Shown: piece after piece, positions 7,853 to 15,316 of the stretch
Layout: each line of letters starts with the position of its first letter
Position numbering within the stretch: the first letter of the stretch is position 1
Source: Lachnospiraceae bacterium
GTDB lineage: Bacteria > Bacillota > Clostridia > Lachnospirales > Lachnospiraceae
Length of the DNA stretch: 32,382 bases
Direction of reading: 5' to 3'
Assembly (NCBI GenBank): GCA_022510605.1
Contig: JAFLTB010000029.1
Location: forward strand, 1-32,382
Notes under the pieces: generated by a model
Told to the model about the DNA's origin: nothing
Databases searched by the model: none
What the model saw: only the letters and a program-made list of their open reading frames with translations
Made by a program: the position numbers and the translations under genes

Positions 7853-7926
7853 GATGGAAAAATTACAGGTCATGTTTTTGATATGAAAGTTGTTGCCACA
7901 ATAAAATGAGAAATGAGGTTGAGAAA

Positions 7927-9567
7927 ATGAGAAATATTTTAATTGGAGGGGCCTGGCCCTATGCCAATGGTTCACTGCATATAGGGCATATTGCCGGACT
8001 TCTGCCGGGAGATGTGCTGGCGAGATACCATAGAGCCGTTGGAGATGAGGTATATTTTGTATCGGGAAGCGATTGTCATGGAACACCGGTTGCCATCCGG
8101 GCGAAGCAGGAACAGAGAACACCACAGGAAATTAGTGATTTCTATCACCGGGAATTTGTAGACTGTTTTCAGAAATTGGGTTTCAGCTATGATGTATATA
8201 CCAAAACATCGTCAGAGGAGCACAAAAGGTTTGTGCAGGCATTTCATAAAAAACTATACGAAAGCGCTTATGTATATGAAAAGGAAACACCGCAGGCCTA
8301 TTGTGAAACCTGCCATACATTTTTAGCAGACCGCTTTGTGTCAGGTAAATGCCCAAAATGTGGAGAGGATACCAGAGGCGATCAGTGTGATGTATGTGGT
8401 GCGGTATTAGAGCCTGAAATCCTGATAGAACCAGTCTGCGCCGTTTGTGGAAGGACGGTCAGTTTTAGAAAATCCTCCCATCTTTATATTGCTATATCCA
8501 AACTGGAACGGCAGCTGCGGGAGTTAGTGGAGGCACATCCTGAGTGGAGAAAAAATGCCATAGCCTTTACCGGAAAATATATAGACGAGGGACTGCGAGA
8601 CAGAGCGTTGACAAGGGACCTGGACTGGGGAATCCCTGTTCCATGGAAGGGGTATGAGGAAAAAAGCATTTATATCTGGGCGGAGAATGTATTGGGGTAT
8701 TTGTCTGCCAGTAAAACAGCCGCAGAAAAAAGAGGAACGGACTTCAGGGAGGTCTGGGGTAAAGATGCGAAACATTACTATGTGCACGGCAAAGATAACA
8801 TTCCTTTCCACACAATTATTTTGCCGGCCCTTTTGCTGGCAAATGGGGAGAGCTGGCATTTGCCGGATGCTATCGTATCCAGTGAGTACCTGACATTAGA
8901 GGGCAGAAAAATATCTACGAGCCAGAACTACGCAATCTGGGTCAGGGATATGCTGGAGCGCTACGATGCAGATTCCATCCGCTATTATTTCCTGGCAAAC
9001 GGACCGGAGAAAAAGGATGCGGACTTCTCCTGGAGGGAATATGTGAACAGTCACAATGGCGAACTGTTGGGAGCGTATGGAAACTTTATCAATCGCTCCC
9101 TGTCATTTATTCACAAATACTGGAATGGCATTGTGCCGGAGGGAACGGATAATCCGGGCATAAATGAACAGATAGAAAAGCTGTTTACAGCTACCGGACA
9201 AAAAATCGAAAGAGGGGCGTTGAAGGACGCCCTTGCCGGAGTATTTGAATTTGTGAGAGGGGCCAATAAATATTTTGACAGTGAACGTCCCTGGGTTACC
9301 AGGCTGGAAGATGAAAAAGCGTGTCAAAACACACTTTTTCAGTGCGTTCAGATCATTGCCAATCTGGCAGTGCTTTTGTATCCCTTTCTGCCATTTTCAT
9401 CTGAAAAGGTCTGCCGATGGCTGGGTATAGATAATCAGTGGAAAAAACATTCCATTCCAGCGGGGGAGCAGCTGCCGGAGATTGAGATTTTGTTCCAGCG
9501 AATTGATAAGAAGGTGATAGAGGAGGAGGTGGAGCGGCTGAATCCGGGGACTGCAAAGAAAGAATAA
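7927..9567 (+). CDS. metS: Methionyl-tRNA synthetase, short form with two zinc knuckles
   Basis: Class I synthetase that charges tRNA-Met with methionine. GGAWPYANGSLHIGH (7-21) contains the HIGH signature. Four CxxC pairs (126/129, 142/145, 154/157, 171/174) make the two-knuckle zinc domain. KISTS (328-332) stands in for KMSKS. The helical anticodon domain follows, and the C-terminal tRNA-binding (EMAP-like) domain of longer forms is absent, giving 546 residues. The ATG at 7927 follows GAGG at 8 nt; the ATG at 7906 is in frame but has no clear ribosome site. Controlled by the T-box upstream. The two-zinc form is distinct from the one-knuckle form of many Bacilli, so the genome may carry another metS. 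Confidence 0.95.
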   Translation: MRNILIGGAWPYANGSLHIGHIAGLLPGDVLARYHRAVGDEVYFVSGSDCHGTPVAIRAKQEQRTPQEISDFYHREFVDCFQKLGFSYDVYTKTSSEEHKRFVQAFHKKLYESAYVYEKETPQAYCETCHTFLADRFVSGKCPKCGEDTRGDQCDVCGAVLEPEILIEPVCAVCGRTVSFRKSSHLYIAISKLERQLRELVEAHPEWRKNAIAFTGKYIDEGLRDRALTRDLDWGIPVPWKGYEEKSIYIWAENVLGYLSASKTAAEKRGTDFREVWGKDAKHYYVHGKDNIPFHTIILPALLLANGESWHLPDAIVSSEYLTLEGRKISTSQNYAIWVRDMLERYDADSIRYYFLANGPEKKDADFSWREYVNSHNGELLGAYGNFINRSLSFIHKYWNGIVPEGTDNPGINEQIEKLFTATGQKIERGALKDALAGVFEFVRGANKYFDSERPWVTRLEDEKACQNTLFQCVQIIANLAVLLYPFLPFSSEKVCRWLGIDNQWKKHSIPAGEQLPEIEILFQRIDKKVIEEEVERLNPGTAKKE

Positions 9568-9603
9568 GATGTTTCAATAAGGGGGATAAAACGGAATAAG
9601 GGC
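9568..9603 (+). repeat. Left copy of direct repeat bounding the TIR operon
   Basis: Begins at the base after the metS stop and reads ATGTTTCAATAAGGGGGATA then AAACGGAATAAGGG. A near-identical copy (ATGTTTCAATAAGAGGATAT then AAACACGGAATAAGGG) starts right after the last stop of the TIR operon at 13565. The copies differ by a few substitutions and a 2-3-nt indel. Confidence 0.7.
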
Positions 9604-9843: not shown

Positions 9844-10392
9844 ATGGCATATAAATATGATGTTGCAATTTCATATCAGAGTGAAATAGAAGAAAAAGCG
9901 GGCAAAATAGCAGATTATCTTAGAACGGAAAATCTTGAAATCTTTTTTGCGCCAGAAAGGCAGAAAGAAATTCTCTCTGAGAAGCTTCACGAAGTCTTGT
10001 ATGATATCTATAAAAATCAAACTTTTGTTAGATTATTACTTATTTCGGATGCTTATTTATCAAGCGAATGGACTCAATTGGAAAAACGAGTTTCATCAGG
10101 CGAGAACTATGATGATAGAAAAAGAAAGATTGTTGTTGATTATACAGAAAATCTTTCTTTGCCAAAGGAATTACGGGAGATTGTTTATATAAATGGAAAA
10201 GAAAAATATGAGGACGAAATTGCATCGTTAGTTGCATCTTATACAAAAAAACTCAAGGCAAATACAAAAATGGATGGTAGCGACAGTTATTTAGAACCAG
10301 AAAGAGACAAAAATATTATAATACAGAATAATTCTGGCATTATGATATCAGGTAGTGCCAGTGTTGGCAACATTAATTTTAACAGGGAATAA
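9844..10392 (+). CDS. TIR-domain protein with C-terminal RHIM-like motif
   Basis: 182 residues. Residues ~4-135 fit a TIR fold: YDVAISYQSE strand, ADYLRTENLEIFFAP, LLLISDAYLSSEWTQLEKRV. Glu80, four residues after Trp76, is in the place of the catalytic Glu of NAD-cleaving TIR domains such as SARM1. TIR enzymes in bacterial immunity degrade NAD or make cyclic-ADPR signals. After a polar linker the last ~25 residues read IIIQNNSGIMISGSASVGNI then NFNRE, without TIR homology, and closely resemble residues 65-89 of the next protein. The start is the ATG at 9844, with AGGGGG 7 nt upstream. First gene of a four-gene AT-rich operon. Substrate and trigger are inferred, not seen. Confidence 0.85.
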   Translation: MAYKYDVAISYQSEIEEKAGKIADYLRTENLEIFFAPERQKEILSEKLHEVLYDIYKNQTFVRLLLISDAYLSSEWTQLEKRVSSGENYDDRKRKIVVDYTENLSLPKELREIVYINGKEKYEDEIASLVASYTKKLKANTKMDGSDSYLEPERDKNIIIQNNSGIMISGSASVGNINFNRE

Positions 10393-10402
10393 ACGTATCG
10401 AC

Positions 10403-11905
10403 ATGGAAGAAAAAAGTATAAATTTGGAAAAAGATAATACAGAAAAATATTTGGAAAAAGAGAAAATGGAAGAACAACAAAGTAATGATGCTTCAGAAGA
10501 AGAGCAGGTATCCAAAAATGTAAATGAGCATTGGACAAATGTGATTGATTTGGGTAAGGATTGTGAGGAGCGGACTGTAATTATCAACCAATATAGAGAT
10601 GTTTATATGACAAATAATAGTGGAGTTATGGTGAAGGATAATGCAAGTGTCCAAGAAATTAATTTCTCGCAAGTATTAAATAAAAACTCAAAAGAATCTG
10701 AATGCACGGTAGTAGAAAATTCTGAACATTTAAGACAATGGATATTGCACAATTACTATACCATGGGTGTACCGTATTTAATATCTTGTGCAGTTTTTTA
10801 TAATATGCCGTATATGTGGATATGCGAGGCTGCAAAAGCATTATCTTTATTGTTATATTCAACAGAGAATAATGTTGAAAAGAGAATATTTAGTCAACAA
10901 GACATAAAGGAATTTGGCGCTGAGATATACAGGGCAGATATTAATACCGGTTCAGGAAAATCTAAAATGGATTTTGTAAGATTTTTAAAAAGTAGTTATC
11001 CAGATATAATAATGAAGTGTATATGGAATCAATTTCCAGAAATGAGAGAAGTCATCACGAATTGGTTAAAGAGGTGTATGCTTTTTAATAAAAAAATTAT
11101 GTTTCGCCGTGTGAATGATGTTTTAAGTATGTTGGCACAAGAGGATTATTATTATTTTGTTAATTATATAGTACAACAATTATATGATGAAAAAGATATT
11201 CATGCAGATATGGGCTTGACTAGAATTATATTATCATTGTATGAAGCAGAAAATCACAAAGAAAATTCGAAAAAATTGGTAAACCAATGGAGTGAGAGAA
11301 AAGAAGTACATCATTTACTGACAGTTATGCTTATATGTAATGAACGGGTGGAACAAAAAACTAATCTTAATAAAGCAATTCATAATTATCTTGATGGGTT
11401 ATTTCGCAGCATTTTGAGAAACAGAGAAAATGATTTTAGCAGGCGAATGTATGACTTCTTTGCAATCGGAATGAGAAACTTTACATTTTATCGGATTATT
11501 ATTGAAGAAATTTATGAATTTGCAAAATTGCAAAAGACACAAAAAGAGGCTGTAAAATTATTTTTGTTACTTTTTTCCTGTGATGTAACTTTGGCGAAAA
11601 TTACAAAAGAGGAAGCAATTTTTGTTAAATTAGTTTATAGTAACAGCGTAATTAGAACAAAATTATGTGAACTGTGGCGGATGGCTTGGAATAAGCATGC
11701 ATTTAGAGAAATCTTCTATTTAGAACTTGGAAGGTGTTTTGTGAACAGGGGAGACGATAGAGAGTGTGAAATAGAAAGGTTTATTGCTTCGGCTTTTTTT
11801 GAACTTGAGAGTGAATATAAAGAAGATTTAGAAATAAAAATAGTGCAGCAATGCAGGAGGCTTGATAAAAATGAGCAAATTTATAAAAAAGAAGGAAAGT
11901 TTTAG
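10403..11905 (+). CDS. Large helical protein sharing a motif with the TIR protein
   Basis: 500 residues, not recognised. Residues 1-45 are acidic and disordered-looking. Residues 56-90 contain DVYMTNNSGVMVKDNASVQE then INF, matching the C-terminal motif of the TIR protein in spacing and at the NNSG, M, ASV and INF positions. From ~105 to the end it is rich in helices with repeated aromatic/Leu patterns, like an alpha-solenoid or a STAND-type C-terminal region, but I see no proper Walker A/B. GSGKS at 183-187 lacks the upstream glycine. The ATG at 10403 starts 10 nt after the TIR stop with only a weak ribosome site, so coupling to TIR translation is likely. Its 3' end overlaps the next gene by 35 nt. 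A sensor or scaffold role is inference. Confidence 0.75.
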   Translation: MEEKSINLEKDNTEKYLEKEKMEEQQSNDASEEEQVSKNVNEHWTNVIDLGKDCEERTVIINQYRDVYMTNNSGVMVKDNASVQEINFSQVLNKNSKESECTVVENSEHLRQWILHNYYTMGVPYLISCAVFYNMPYMWICEAAKALSLLLYSTENNVEKRIFSQQDIKEFGAEIYRADINTGSGKSKMDFVRFLKSSYPDIIMKCIWNQFPEMREVITNWLKRCMLFNKKIMFRRVNDVLSMLAQEDYYYFVNYIVQQLYDEKDIHADMGLTRIILSLYEAENHKENSKKLVNQWSERKEVHHLLTVMLICNERVEQKTNLNKAIHNYLDGLFRSILRNRENDFSRRMYDFFAIGMRNFTFYRIIIEEIYEFAKLQKTQKEAVKLFLLLFSCDVTLAKITKEEAIFVKLVYSNSVIRTKLCELWRMAWNKHAFREIFYLELGRCFVNRGDDRECEIERFIASAFFELESEYKEDLEIKIVQQCRRLDKNEQIYKKEGKF

Positions 11906-12833
11906 ATATGGATTTTTAGACAAGGTGCCAGTGCCAGAACCGAATGAAGGCATTCTTTTGTATCGGGACGGAAATGGTGAAAATGGAAGCATTTTTATAG
12001 ATGCCATAACAAAACCATTTTCAGCTGATATACGGCGGGGAAAGTTTAATGTAAAAGTAACATTTGATTTGAGTGAAAAACAGGATAGTCAGCTTTTTAA
12101 AATAGCCATGTCTGAAGGAAATTTTTATTTTTATGTAAAAATAAAAATTTCCTATACATTAAAGAATGCGCGAGAGTATTATTTTAAAGATGATGCAGAA
12201 AGTGAAGGTGTCGTAAGAAACGATATAAAAGGAATAATGGATGAACAGGATGGGAAATGGAAATTGCATGAAATAAATGAACTAGAGAAAACGCTACAAA
12301 GAGAATTTGAAAAACTGCAGCAGACATATTATTGTTTACAGTTTAATGAAATTTTTGTTGAAGTGAAGCCAGATGAAGAGGCTGAAAAGTTAATAAAATC
12401 AGATAAGGAAAAAAGTATTGAAATATACACTGCGGGAAATAAAGCTGATATAGAAGTGGCAAAAAATTTTCACAAAGGAAGAGTCATGGAAAGTAGTTAT
12501 ACTTTACAAATGAAACAGTTAGACAGAATGGAACAACTTGCTAGAACCTTTGGCGAAGTAGCACCTGTAGTAGAGGAATATTTAGATGGAAAAATTGATG
12601 GTAGGGAACTGTATAAATACATAGATAATAAAAAAGAAAAAGATATTAATATTCTGGCAAGGGCACGTGAGGAAGATTGGTTGACTGACCAGAGTTTTAA
12701 TAGAAAATTAGAGGAAATAATGGGGCATGAAAAATTTGCGCAAGTGGAACCAGAAAGGAAAATAGAAGAAAAAAATAAATTTCAAATAGAAAAGAAGGAA
12801 GAACCTGCTTTAGAGGATGGAGATTTTGTATGA
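11871..12833 (+). CDS. SPFH/band-7-like protein with coiled coil
   Basis: 320 residues, no signal peptide or clear TM segment. It opens with FRYGFLDKVPVPEPNEGILL, like the entry to SPFH (stomatin/flotillin) domains. A beta-rich section follows (FNVKVTFDLSEKQDSQLFKI, then FYFYVKIKISYTL). After that come ELEKTLQREFEKL and FNEIFVEVKPDEEAEKLIKS, as in the SPFH core, then a long charged helix (~165-245) likely to be coiled coil. The last ~50 residues are Lys/Glu rich. SPFH proteins build membrane-associated oligomeric cages. The assignment rests on pattern and order only. CAGGAGG lies 10 nt before the ATG. Overlaps genes on both sides (35 nt before, ATGA after). Confidence 0.55.
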   Translation: MSKFIKKKESFRYGFLDKVPVPEPNEGILLYRDGNGENGSIFIDAITKPFSADIRRGKFNVKVTFDLSEKQDSQLFKIAMSEGNFYFYVKIKISYTLKNAREYYFKDDAESEGVVRNDIKGIMDEQDGKWKLHEINELEKTLQREFEKLQQTYYCLQFNEIFVEVKPDEEAEKLIKSDKEKSIEIYTAGNKADIEVAKNFHKGRVMESSYTLQMKQLDRMEQLARTFGEVAPVVEEYLDGKIDGRELYKYIDNKKEKDINILARAREEDWLTDQSFNRKLEEIMGHEKFAQVEPERKIEEKNKFQIEKKEEPALEDGDFV

Positions 12834-13564
12834 GTAAACTTTATTATGGCCTTTGGCAAGATTTATACACACTTCCATGGCCGGGACGTTTATTAATAGA
12901 ATTTCTGATCTTTTTACTTGCCGCATTTATTCTATGCAAAGTGGCAAGTAAGATATTTCAAATATTGAGATTGAAAAAGGTATTTGTAAAGATATCGGTA
13001 TTGATTGCAACAAAAGTTTTGTCCTGTGTAGGAAGAAATAGGGAATGGGCTCATAACTTGGATGAAAAGGTAATTGACTGGGGAAATAGGGTAATGAGTA
13101 GTCATTTTACCTTGAGTAGTAAACTGAAAAAGATTTTATGTATAAGTGTTGTTGTCGTATATGTATTGGCCATTCTGCCAGATATACCAATTAGTTACTA
13201 TTTTGATGAGCCTATAATTACCAAAATTTCAATGGTAAAAAACACTTTGGAAGTGTGGGAAAGTAAAATTTCCTTTGGGTACCTATCTTATGTGCCCGTA
13301 TTTACACAATCGGAGGAAGAAAAGATTTATATTCAGATAAAGAATCTGAAGAAGAAAATTATACTTTATAAAGAACCCTTAGATAAGTCAAAAAAAATAA
13401 GAAAAATAGAACAAAATGAGAAAATTCAATATCAGAATCAATACAAAAAAGTAGGAAAAGTATATTGGCTAAAAGTATCGCTCCCAGAGCAAAATGTCGA
13501 AGGGTGGATAAAAGGAACTACAATTCAGAAAAAACAATTAGAAACTCTTACAAAAGAAGAATAG
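12830..13564 (+). CDS. Two-TM protein with C-terminal SH3-like domain
   Basis: 244 residues. Two hydrophobic helices are at ~19-40 (LLIEFLIFLLAAFILCKVAS) and ~102-122 (KILCISVVVVYVLAILPDIP). Between them is a basic amphipathic stretch. After the second TM, residues ~170-232 (ILYKEPLDKSKKIRKIEQNE, then VYWLKVSLPEQNVEGWIKG) read as a bacterial SH3 fold, usually a peptidoglycan- or peptide-binding module. The two-TM topology puts both ends on the same side; which side is not certain. Its ATG overlaps the SPFH gene's stop as ATGA. As last gene of the TIR operon it could anchor the complex at the membrane. No close family is recognised. Confidence 0.65.
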   Translation: MSKLYYGLWQDLYTLPWPGRLLIEFLIFLLAAFILCKVASKIFQILRLKKVFVKISVLIATKVLSCVGRNREWAHNLDEKVIDWGNRVMSSHFTLSSKLKKILCISVVVVYVLAILPDIPISYYFDEPIITKISMVKNTLEVWESKISFGYLSYVPVFTQSEEEKIYIQIKNLKKKIILYKEPLDKSKKIRKIEQNEKIQYQNQYKKVGKVYWLKVSLPEQNVEGWIKGTTIQKKQLETLTKEE

Positions 13565-13601: not shown

Positions 13602-13620
13602 GGAGAGTGGACTCTCCCCT
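13599..13620. terminator. Hairpin between the TIR operon and vanW
   Basis: GGGGAGAGT pairs with ACTCTCCCC around a GG loop. The stem reaches the stop codon of the convergent VanW gene. The T-tract is weak on both sides (TTATT on the minus strand). Probably shared by both transcripts. Confidence 0.55.
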
Positions 13621-14803
13621 AATCATATGTATCCTTCCCCAGAAAAATCGTCTTCACTTTCTTTCCATTTTTATATACATCCAGATAAGATTTTGCCTTT
13701 TTACTGGACAGTTTTTCTGCCCTTGGTTTATAGCGGTAGCCCTTCAAGGCATTGGCATAGGATGTAAGGTGGACGTTTAAGGTATTTCCCTTGGTTTTGG
13801 CTGAAATCAGGAGAGGATAATCCAGAGTGTTTTCCACCAGTAAATCCTTTCCACCCACAGAGAGAGCGGCGTCCAGTCCCAGAGGGGAGTAGCTTACCGG
13901 AATACTGTGCGGATAGCGTTTGGTGGGAATAATTCCCGCAAACAAAAAGGAAGCATAGGCGGTGGTAGATACCTGGCAGATACCTCCGCCTTCTGCCTGT
14001 ACCACCTTGCCCTTAAAAAAGGCACCGGATTTTTGATACGATTTTCCATCGGAATCATCGTATAAGACATTCAAAAACGATATGGATTCCCCAGGCAGCA
14101 GGAAACTGTTGTCAAGCCGGGAGGCGGCAATCTTAATGTTAGCACCTCGGGGATTGGTGGACACAAAGGAGGTGGAATAGCTGCTGATTACTGTATTGAC
14201 TTCTTTCAAATCTTCCGTAGTCCAGGCAGGCTCTACCGCGGAGGTTTTATAAGAAGCAGAATAATTATCTGTTGTCTTTTGGCTGAGATAGCTGGTAAGG
14301 TCGTTGTAGATGGATGTGGTGTCCAGAACATGCCCCGGTTTGGAGGCAGTGATTTTTCCATGGGAATTGATGCGTGCATTTTTAGCGGAAGTATCATAGG
14401 TGCTGGATAATTCTTTCATTATCTTTGTTACGGCATCTGCATCGGATTCAGACTGGACAAGGCTGTCAAGTTCTTCTTCCGATATGCTGCTGTCAGCATC
14501 AAAAAGAAGACTGGCAAGGGAGGATTCGTTGCCAAGCTCATAGGTTTTGTTTTCATATTCATAATATATGTGCTCCCCCAGTTCTGTCATGGTATAGACA
14601 TGGTTGTCGCCATCTATAGTAAGGGTGGCAGAGCGCTCCTGATAGCGGGCGGCTGTCTCTGCCAGAGAGTTTTGCAGTTTTTCAACGGCCTGCCGCCGGT
14701 CTCTGTCTGTGCGGTAACGGCTATACACCTGAAAGGCGCCGAAGACACCAGCGGCGGCCAGTACAGTAACTAAAACAATAAGAAGTTTTTTATATCGTTT
14801 CAT
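13619..14803 (-). CDS. VanW-family protein, membrane anchored
   Basis: 394 residues. A single N-terminal TM anchor (KKLLIVLVTVLAAAGVFGAF) is followed by an extracellular region. The VanW core is clear: NSFLLPGESISFLNVL, then SGAFFKGKVVQAEGGGICQV, STTAYASFLFAG and RYPHSIPVSYSPLGLDAALS. VanW proteins occur in some glycopeptide-resistance clusters and widely in Firmicutes, with unknown reaction. A peptidoglycan-binding 4-type domain may occupy residues ~70-190. No van genes are nearby, so this is the ordinary chromosomal form. The ribosome site is AAAGGA. Convergent with the TIR operon. Confidence 0.85.
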   Translation of the reverse strand: MKRYKKLLIVLVTVLAAAGVFGAFQVYSRYRTDRDRRQAVEKLQNSLAETAARYQERSATLTIDGDNHVYTMTELGEHIYYEYENKTYELGNESSLASLLFDADSSISEEELDSLVQSESDADAVTKIMKELSSTYDTSAKNARINSHGKITASKPGHVLDTTSIYNDLTSYLSQKTTDNYSASYKTSAVEPAWTTEDLKEVNTVISSYSTSFVSTNPRGANIKIAASRLDNSFLLPGESISFLNVLYDDSDGKSYQKSGAFFKGKVVQAEGGGICQVSTTAYASFLFAGIIPTKRYPHSIPVSYSPLGLDAALSVGGKDLLVENTLDYPLLISAKTKGNTLNVHLTSYANALKGYRYKPRAEKLSSKKAKSYLDVYKNGKKVKTIFLGKDTYD

Positions 14804-14998
14804 AACAGAATCCTTTCTTGTTTATGTATTCATTCATACGCATGAGCGGTGTGCGAGGTTTCGTTTCATATGCGTTTATTATAGCATGTGAAAGGAGAAA
14901 TTGCCACTGTTTCCTGTAAAATGGGTGCAAAAAGAAAATAAATGTGCTATAATAAAAAAACACGCAAACCTGATAAAAAAGAAAGGTGGTGAAGGGCG
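14804..14998. promoter_or_regulatory. Divergent promoters of vanW and the SCP2-like gene
   Basis: Two TATAAT boxes face outward in nearly mirror-image context: TTATTATAGCA around 14877-14886 for the minus-strand gene and GCTATAATAA around 14946-14955 for the plus-strand gene. The minus promoter has a weak TGGCAA -35 at 17 nt. Confidence 0.6.
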
Positions 14999-15316
14999 AT
15001 GACGTTTGAAGAAGTATTTCAAAAAGTAAAGGACATGTTTAAGGATACGGATGTGAGCCATATTACAGAACATTTGGCATATCAGTTTAATATTACAGGT
15101 GAAGGAGCCGGCATTTTTTATGTTGAGGTCAAAGAGGGCCAATTACATATTGAGCCCTATGAATATTACGACAGGGATGCTATTTTTATCTGCAAGGCAG
15201 ACACCCTGTTCAAAATTATTTCCGGCAAGACAGACCCGGTACTGGCCTTTACTCTTGGCAAATTAAAGGTAGAGGGAAGCATTGAGCAGGCATTGAAGCT
15301 GAAGGACTTTTTGTAG
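14999..15316 (+). CDS. SCP2 sterol-binding-like domain protein
   Basis: 105 residues, all one SCP2-like domain: ITEHLAYQFNITGEGAGIFY, then VEVKEGQLHIEPYEYYDRDA, IFICKADTLFKIISGKTDPV and LAFTLGKLKVEGSIEQALKL. These proteins bind hydrophobic ligands in a small alpha/beta pocket. In bacteria lacking sterols the ligand is unknown, perhaps fatty acyl or isoprenoid. Cytosolic. The ribosome site is GGTGGTGAAGGG. Confidence 0.85.
   Translation: MTFEEVFQKVKDMFKDTDVSHITEHLAYQFNITGEGAGIFYVEVKEGQLHIEPYEYYDRDAIFICKADTLFKIISGKTDPVLAFTLGKLKVEGSIEQALKLKDFL

Follow-up and report, generated by a model that had tools for sequence, protein, structure and literature searches.

Here, we describe a four-gene operon in a 32,382-nucleotide stretch of DNA from a Lachnospiraceae bacterium (assembly GCA_022510605.1, contig JAFLTB010000029.1, positions 1 to 32,382 of the forward strand; hereafter the window), encoding a TIR-domain protein, a helical-repeat protein (HEL), a protein with an SPFH fold and a two-transmembrane (TM) protein with an SH3-like C-terminus (TM-SH3). 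An earlier note on this DNA had proposed the operon, at 9844-13564, as a candidate immune system. Its description of four tightly packed genes was confirmed from the open reading frames: TIR and HEL are separated by a 10 nt gap, HEL and SPFH overlap by 35 nt, and SPFH and TM-SH3 overlap by 4 nt. The genes, together with a short motif shared by the first two proteins, are located as follows.

9844..10392, plus strand: effector, a TIR-domain protein of 182 aa in which Trp76 and Glu80 are kept
10403..11905, plus strand: HEL, 500 aa, from the open reading frame and predicted structure
11871..12833, plus strand: SPFH-fold protein, 320 aa, from fold comparison
12830..13564, plus strand: TM-SH3, a two-TM protein with an SH3-like C-terminus, 244 aa
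10327..10380, plus strand: effector copy of the shared motif, NNSGIMISGSASVGNINF (TIR residues 162-179), C-terminal in the TIR protein
10613..10666, plus strand: HEL copy of the shared motif, NNSGVMVKDNASVQEINF (residues 71-88), within the N-terminal part that is modelled at low confidence

The gene set is more than a chance neighbourhood, because the identical gene order was seen again in other genomes. Surveys with HEL, which cover samples of genomes and not all genomes, found it in 3/99 relatives, 3/397 genomes of the family and 3/392 of the order (own genome counted in each), in 2/37 genomes of another genus (survey centre counted) and in 2/391 genomes of the class; one further family (38 genomes) returned the centre genome alone, and the phylum (398 genomes) the window's own genome alone. 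One contig scan with the TIR alignment as query gave 20 TIR loci. Eleven distinct HEL loci were distinguished (the window, L010, L011, L012, L013, L014, L015, L036, L037, L038 and L042), the relatives coming from records whose titles name Eubacterium, Roseburia and Clostridia. Behind HEL lies an SPFH-like gene in 11/11 loci, and a TM gene is present in 10/11, the L013 contig stopping within the SPFH gene and the L042 TM gene being assigned from position and hydropathy alone. With single window proteins as queries against the 99 relatives, the SPFH protein matched exactly the three genomes of HEL, and TM-SH3 matched these three plus a 55-residue, SH3-only stretch in G024; a diverged copy in G086, a genome that belongs to the 99, escaped each of the three single-protein searches and was found by a profile alone. 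Partner genes occur at 5/5 of the TIR loci with at least 45% identity, and at the 15 loci with at most 34% identity tblastn (1e-2) found none, several of these contigs ending less than 2 kb past the TIR gene. This co-occurrence, which reaches beyond the strain in which the earlier note grouped the genes, indicates that the four genes travel together, sporadically. Judged by eye from their neighbours, HEL operons lie at different chromosomal sites, and no copy came up in the searches that were run on plasmids, phages and viral contigs.

While HEL, SPFH and TM genes form a conserved core, the slot in front of them is exchangeable. The first gene encodes a TIR protein in 8/11 loci, a nucleoside phosphorylase (PNP) in 1/11 (L036; Pfam PNP_UDP_1, 1.6e-8), a protein kinase in 1/11 (L037; Pfam Pkinase, 1.2e-19) and a protein without an assigned family in 1/11 (L042). 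In PADLOC, the phosphorylase matched 'Effector, PN-superfamily' (1.9e-9) and PDC-M60C (1.7e-11), and the kinase the models mad6, MkoA and PD-T4-6. At L042, a DUF4145 domain (5.4e-6) is fused ahead of HEL, and the preceding gene has weak TPR matches only, its start recalling what we take to be DUF3800. That locus (L042:3686-10108) reads as a distant version of the operon, with the TPR-bearing gene in front, the DUF4145-HEL fusion, an SPFH-like protein and a short TM protein.

The window TIR protein matches Pfam TIR_2 above the cut-off (E 1.3e-9). Glu80 lies four residues past Trp76, as had been read from the sequence, and the Glu of this W-x-x-x-E motif is kept in 8/8 family TIRs (seven in the alignment, L038 by eye), including those of L010 and L038, which have another residue in place of the Trp. 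Against the PDB, the family profile ranked a fimbrial chance match first, above weak alignments to the bacterial TIRs 7uxr (0.0038), 7uwg (0.027) and AbTIR 8g83 (0.043), which are thus its nearest solved relatives; AbTIR, weak relative as it is, is an NAD(+) hydrolase. Pfam and family searches matched the TIR protein to no housekeeping family. Because the Glu is kept throughout and the profile aligns, albeit weakly, with bacterial TIRs, the effector is likely an NADase.

Effector and core are further linked by a tag of approximately 18 residues, common to the effector C-terminus and the HEL N-terminus. The last 45 residues of each effector were scored against the first 130 of its own HEL, with 2000 shuffles, and in 8/9 TIR or PNP loci the score was reached by at most 10 of them; a repeat run gave the same picture. 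The tag of L014 is weak (84 of 2000), and no tag appeared in the kinase/HEL pair of L037 (441 of 2000) or the first-gene/HEL pair of L042 (123 of 2000). Among control pairs (HEL tail with SPFH head, SPFH tail with TM head), counts were low in 2/20 (17 and 3 of 2000). The sum of own-pair scores was reached by 0 of 100000 permutations across nine loci and by 54 of 100000 across seven closely related ones, in a test that does not remove shared ancestry. The own HEL was strictly the best partner in only 6/9 loci; in L013 another HEL scored equally, and in L012 and L014 another scored higher. Pairing is therefore specific more between distant than between close tag versions. The L010 tags (TQIFIQNYNG and IQIFVQNANF) depart from the window version in both partners; those of L036 also differ in both partners, yet match each other (ENMFVAQSVTIDGGISFG in the phosphorylase, ENLFTVQNAIINGGISFG in HEL). 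Since the two window tags are alike at 35/54 nucleotides and use identical codons at 6/11 identical residues, they do not reflect a fresh DNA duplication. Tag lengths in the alignments vary from locus to locus, and those of L010 and L013 extend partly into Lys/Glu-rich sequence outside the motif. Sequence comparison thus establishes that, where the effector is a TIR protein or a phosphorylase, its tail and the head of HEL carry matching tags; the earlier note, which had recognised the domains, missed both this motif and the exchangeable slot.

The duplicated tag has no confident predicted fold: in the window HEL model it lies in a region with pLDDT below 50, where residues 75-77 and 81-83 form short strands. 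One alternative keeps the same immune module and sees in the tag a homotypic adaptor of the EAD kind, whose beta-strands or hairpins would pair in a finite, stoichiometric complex without amyloid templating, activation coming from conformational change or SPFH-driven clustering. Matching tags with effector exchange fit the EAD principle as set out in the sections of PMC7159879 and PMC8195603 drawn on here, and the varying tag lengths also suit it. In the same sections, EADs are small, mostly alpha-helical domains, whereas the present tag is a peptide of about 18 residues with short strands only, in a low-confidence region, and its layout resembles a RHIM-like peptide. On balance, we consider finite pairing rather unlikely.

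Structure predictions for HEL and the SPFH protein were built from 6-row alignments. HEL is modelled with low confidence at residues 1-99 and as a HEAT/ARM-like alpha-solenoid at 107-497, with a beta-hairpin at 173-194 inside the solenoid. Pfam assigned no NTPase family to the HEL proteins of the window, L036, L037, L038 and L042 (5 of 11), and a strict Walker A is absent in 11/11; a GSGKS string at the hairpin turn of the window HEL is not kept in relatives. Neither the window HEL nor the SPFH-like protein has a Pfam family match at a meaningful level. For the latter, Foldseek returned stomatin (E 7.8e-6) and HflK/C (8.7e-6), with 22 matches at or below 1e-3, and the best VIA rows were prohibitin, erlin and HflK/C; Pfam Band_7 was below cut-off in the L038 and L042 proteins and absent in six others scanned. 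As modelled, the third protein is an SPFH protein by fold, not by sequence, and the note's SPFH-like guess was right in the former sense. TM-SH3 has two TMs, a basic loop between them and an SH3-like domain at residues 178-230 (Pfam SH3_3 0.0023, below cut-off, the L014 copy being above it). A wall-binding type domain was found in 4/9 TM proteins scanned, two of them above the Pfam cut-off, and the TM protein of one relative carries PG_binding_1. Altogether, the earlier domain assignments (TIR, helical repeat, SPFH, membrane plus SH3) hold by Pfam, predicted structures and Foldseek. By eye, the TM proteins at L014:9989-10777 and L010:6350-7168 have SH3-like tails far more alike than the remainder, as if the outer domain had been exchanged. 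At L036 (6779-7917), more than 1 kb separates HEL from SPFH and the TM protein has no outer domain; this is possibly a decayed copy.

The SH3 and peptidoglycan-binding domains of the TM protein bring in a second alternative, an envelope-stress or cell-fate system in which a wall-anchored SPFH platform monitors the envelope and the TIR, phosphorylase and kinase outputs are signals, not death. SPFH proteins have known links to membrane quality control, and a kinase as first gene in L037 would fit such a system. Against it, occurrence is too sporadic (3/397 family genomes) and the chromosomal sites too varied for a core stress response, TIR and PNP are effectors typical of immunity, and two loci have strong defence neighbours. 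We regard this alternative as improbable.

Our preferred reading, to which we give a probability of roughly 55%, is that the operon is a modular immune signalosome of the abortive-infection type, in which a tag-coupled TIR effector is served by an SPFH/HEL platform. The TM protein would be tied to the cell wall through its SH3 or peptidoglycan-binding domain and, with an SPFH oligomer, would build a platform under the membrane on which HEL sits. In response to a cue from the envelope or a phage, HEL would then cluster, whereupon the clustered N-terminal motifs might take on a beta-arch (amyloid-like) template form. This template could capture the effector tails and pack the TIR domains together, and packed TIR domains would switch on NAD+ cleavage and stop the infected cell. 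A stronger version is that the operon encodes an NLR-free amyloid signalosome, whose wall- and membrane-anchored SPFH/solenoid platform senses envelope breach and passes a prion-like beta-template to interchangeable enzymes as effectors (TIR, nucleoside phosphorylase); we hold it tentatively, at somewhat less than even odds.

Several observations weigh against the preferred reading. PADLOC was run on 26 neighbour proteins chosen by hand from the 10 loci other than L042, and strong defence neighbours appeared at only 2/10: a Gabija-type GajB helicase a few kb from the operon at L010 (3.9e-176) and a type III methyltransferase adjoining it at L036 (5.9e-152). The window operon's neighbours gave generic methyltransferase and HTH matches plus one marginal match (PbeC, 0.00097), and at six further loci 0/10 neighbour proteins matched. 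Weak likenesses to LmuA (L010) and QatA (L038) were also seen. That the majority of scanned neighbours are not defence genes favours the envelope-stress alternative, and the marginal likeness of the tags to BASS motifs, considered below, favours finite pairing. The note's interpretation as an immune system is partly supported: the gene set recurs, immunity itself is a deduction, and few loci have strong defence company.

Three further features lie at the edges of the operon.

9555..9602, plus strand: direct repeat, left copy (48-50 nt, imperfect), spanning the metS stop codon
13553..13601, plus strand: direct repeat, right copy, spanning the TM-SH3 stop codon
9782..9810, plus strand: promoter-like site TTGATA-17-TAAAAT with a TG extension, matching at 10 of 12 positions

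The operon lies between metS and a VanW-like gene, bounded by the two repeat copies, whose score of 59 compares with a maximum of 28 over 973 random placements; the arrangement fits insertion or local recombination, and no empty site was found for the repeat-bounded window operon. The operon is, as had been noted, more AT rich than its flanks (GC 0.31-0.32 in 1-kb windows over 10001-13000 vs 0.46 at 8001-9000 in metS and 0.44 at 14001-15000 in the VanW-like gene). A ribosome-binding site, AGGGGG, precedes the TIR ATG by eye. The promoter that had been called clear is present as a site, one of the three best (10 of 12) among 24 matches in the region; shuffles gave 19.3 +/- 4.6, and because such sites are as frequent there, the match alone is no evidence.

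The direct repeats, the sporadic distribution and toxin-like effectors accompanied by partner genes would fit a selfish addiction or inter-bacterial element, with a TIR toxin restrained by HEL/SPFH. Such an element is highly improbable in our estimation, as the searches run against plasmids, phages and viral contigs returned no copy, the three conserved partners (244-500 aa) far exceed an antitoxin, and L042, which has no TIR, keeps HEL, SPFH and the TM gene.

The flanking genes were also examined. The window methionyl-tRNA synthetase (MetRS; 7906-9567, 553 aa) is of a sporadic type, with a 67% relative in 1/8 same-genus genomes (G006), which also has a MetRS of the usual type; the window enzyme could be a second, drug-tolerant MetRS. 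The VanW-like protein (13619-14803), which has matches of some strength in 38/39 genus genomes, scores 52.9 against the 365-bit NCBIfam VanW cut-off and, being far under this threshold, is by that test no resistance gene. In G017 (L005), duplicated leucine-rich and subtilisin-like genes (325-831/10166-11164 and 2630-4747/11227-13185) flank the operon, by eye.

If the amyloid version of the preferred reading were true, the operon would represent, at the membrane of bacteria, an equivalent of the necrosome or inflammasome. SPFH scaffolds are best known from stomatins, prohibitins and the vault shoulder, and the operon hints at a scaffold role for this fold in immune output, while the membrane platform suggests a route for reading a wall-level event. 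With four genes, a 182-aa effector, an 18-residue tag and a natural swap from TIR to phosphorylase with matched tags, the system is a small and tractable case. Bacterial amyloid signalling motifs have so far been defined through their association with NLR genes, according to the parts of PMC7889193 and PMC8086366 consulted, and signalling amyloids outside NLR pathways are posed as an open question in the review PMC7889193, which the operon would then answer.

Compared with known systems, the operon is close in layout to the NLR/effector gene pairs of BASS (bacterial amyloid signalling sequence), in which, as the available portions of PMC7889193 and PMC8086366 describe it, a short motif is carried by the effector C-terminus and the N-terminus of the neighbouring gene product, effectors include TIR, and some motifs were discovered via local alignment of neighbouring proteins; BASS is mainly described in filamentous actinobacteria and cyanobacteria (PMC7889193, in part), whereas the relatives here carry Eubacterium, Roseburia and Clostridia titles. 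The operon has the same arrangement of matching motifs on effector and adjacent HEL. Unlike in BASS, whose receptor is an NLR (NACHT or NB-ARC NTPase plus repeats), the HEL partner is no recognisable NLR, being a predicted HEAT/ARM-like solenoid, and SPFH and TM genes are added. The published effector-side BASS3 tag (VDLRDAKGVQVGDGNVQINRF; PMC8086366, in part) shares the layout G-[VI]-x-x-G-D-[NG] with many operon tags. When the single BASS3 peptide tested was scored with a profile built from the 14 close tags, 1 of its 500 shuffles did as well, compared with 105 (archaeal), 57 (sigma) and 188 (PUASM) of 500 for other motifs; pairwise with BASS3, 1/18 tags (L012 HEL) reached at most 10 of 1000 shuffles. 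The BASS profiles are said to come from Dyrka 2020. This likeness to BASS3 is suggestive, short of a family assignment. In records titled Hyunsoonleella, Kordia and Bacteroidales (L017:7001-10047, L022:7001-10240 and L023:7001-9987), a short TIR C-terminal tag matches the N-terminus of the next protein (812-886 aa, no Pfam match at 0.01, no strict Walker A), and this may be a further tag-coupled system that lacks a typical NLR.

In the fungal PNP_UDP/NLR pairs, a nucleoside phosphorylase has a C-terminal amyloid tag, PUASM, matched by its receptor (PMC9815663, in the passages available). The L036 phosphorylase tag is likewise matched by HEL, which here takes the place of the fungal NLR; the PUASM peptide itself is not outstanding with the operon tag profile (the 188 of 500 decoys above). 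EAD systems (MoxR-vWA, GAP1, STAND) join TIR, PNPase, kinase and other effectors to a core via a duplicated adaptor (PMC7159879, PMC8195603, as far as excerpted), and the operon resembles them in its exchangeable effectors and in a matching tag on both partners. It departs from them in that this putative adaptor is short and apparently of beta type, and the four window proteins gave no MoxR, vWA, GAP1/GTPase or STAND match. HflK/C-FtsH, QmcA-YbbJ, stomatin and prohibitin provide a precedent for an SPFH fold with a membrane protein encoded next door. Unlike classical stomatin and HflK/C, which have an N-terminal hydrophobic membrane segment, the operon's SPFH proteins have no hydrophobic segment (none in 11/11 at the hydropathy threshold used), and the membrane partner, unlike that of known SPFH complexes, bears a wall-binding type domain.

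With Thoeris, Swarozyc (a supramolecular NADase complex; PMC13174449, a preprint seen in part) and other TIR antiphage systems, the operon shares a TIR or TIR-like NADase output, here predicted. No PADLOC model, whether a ThsA partner as in Thoeris or any other, matched any of the four window proteins, and the proposed trigger is a HEL tag in place of a nucleotide signal or phage portal. The earlier statement that no described system has this gene set agrees with the lack of a PADLOC model and with an open-access literature search, which found no description of the four-gene system; in the hits examined, SPFH came up at most in a reference list or in connection with a phage lipoprotein. Tag-coupled effectors as such are already known, both from NLR systems (BASS, fungal motifs) and in the form of EADs; what appears to be new here is tag coupling without a recognisable NLR or NTPase, together with an SPFH and putatively wall-anchored module.

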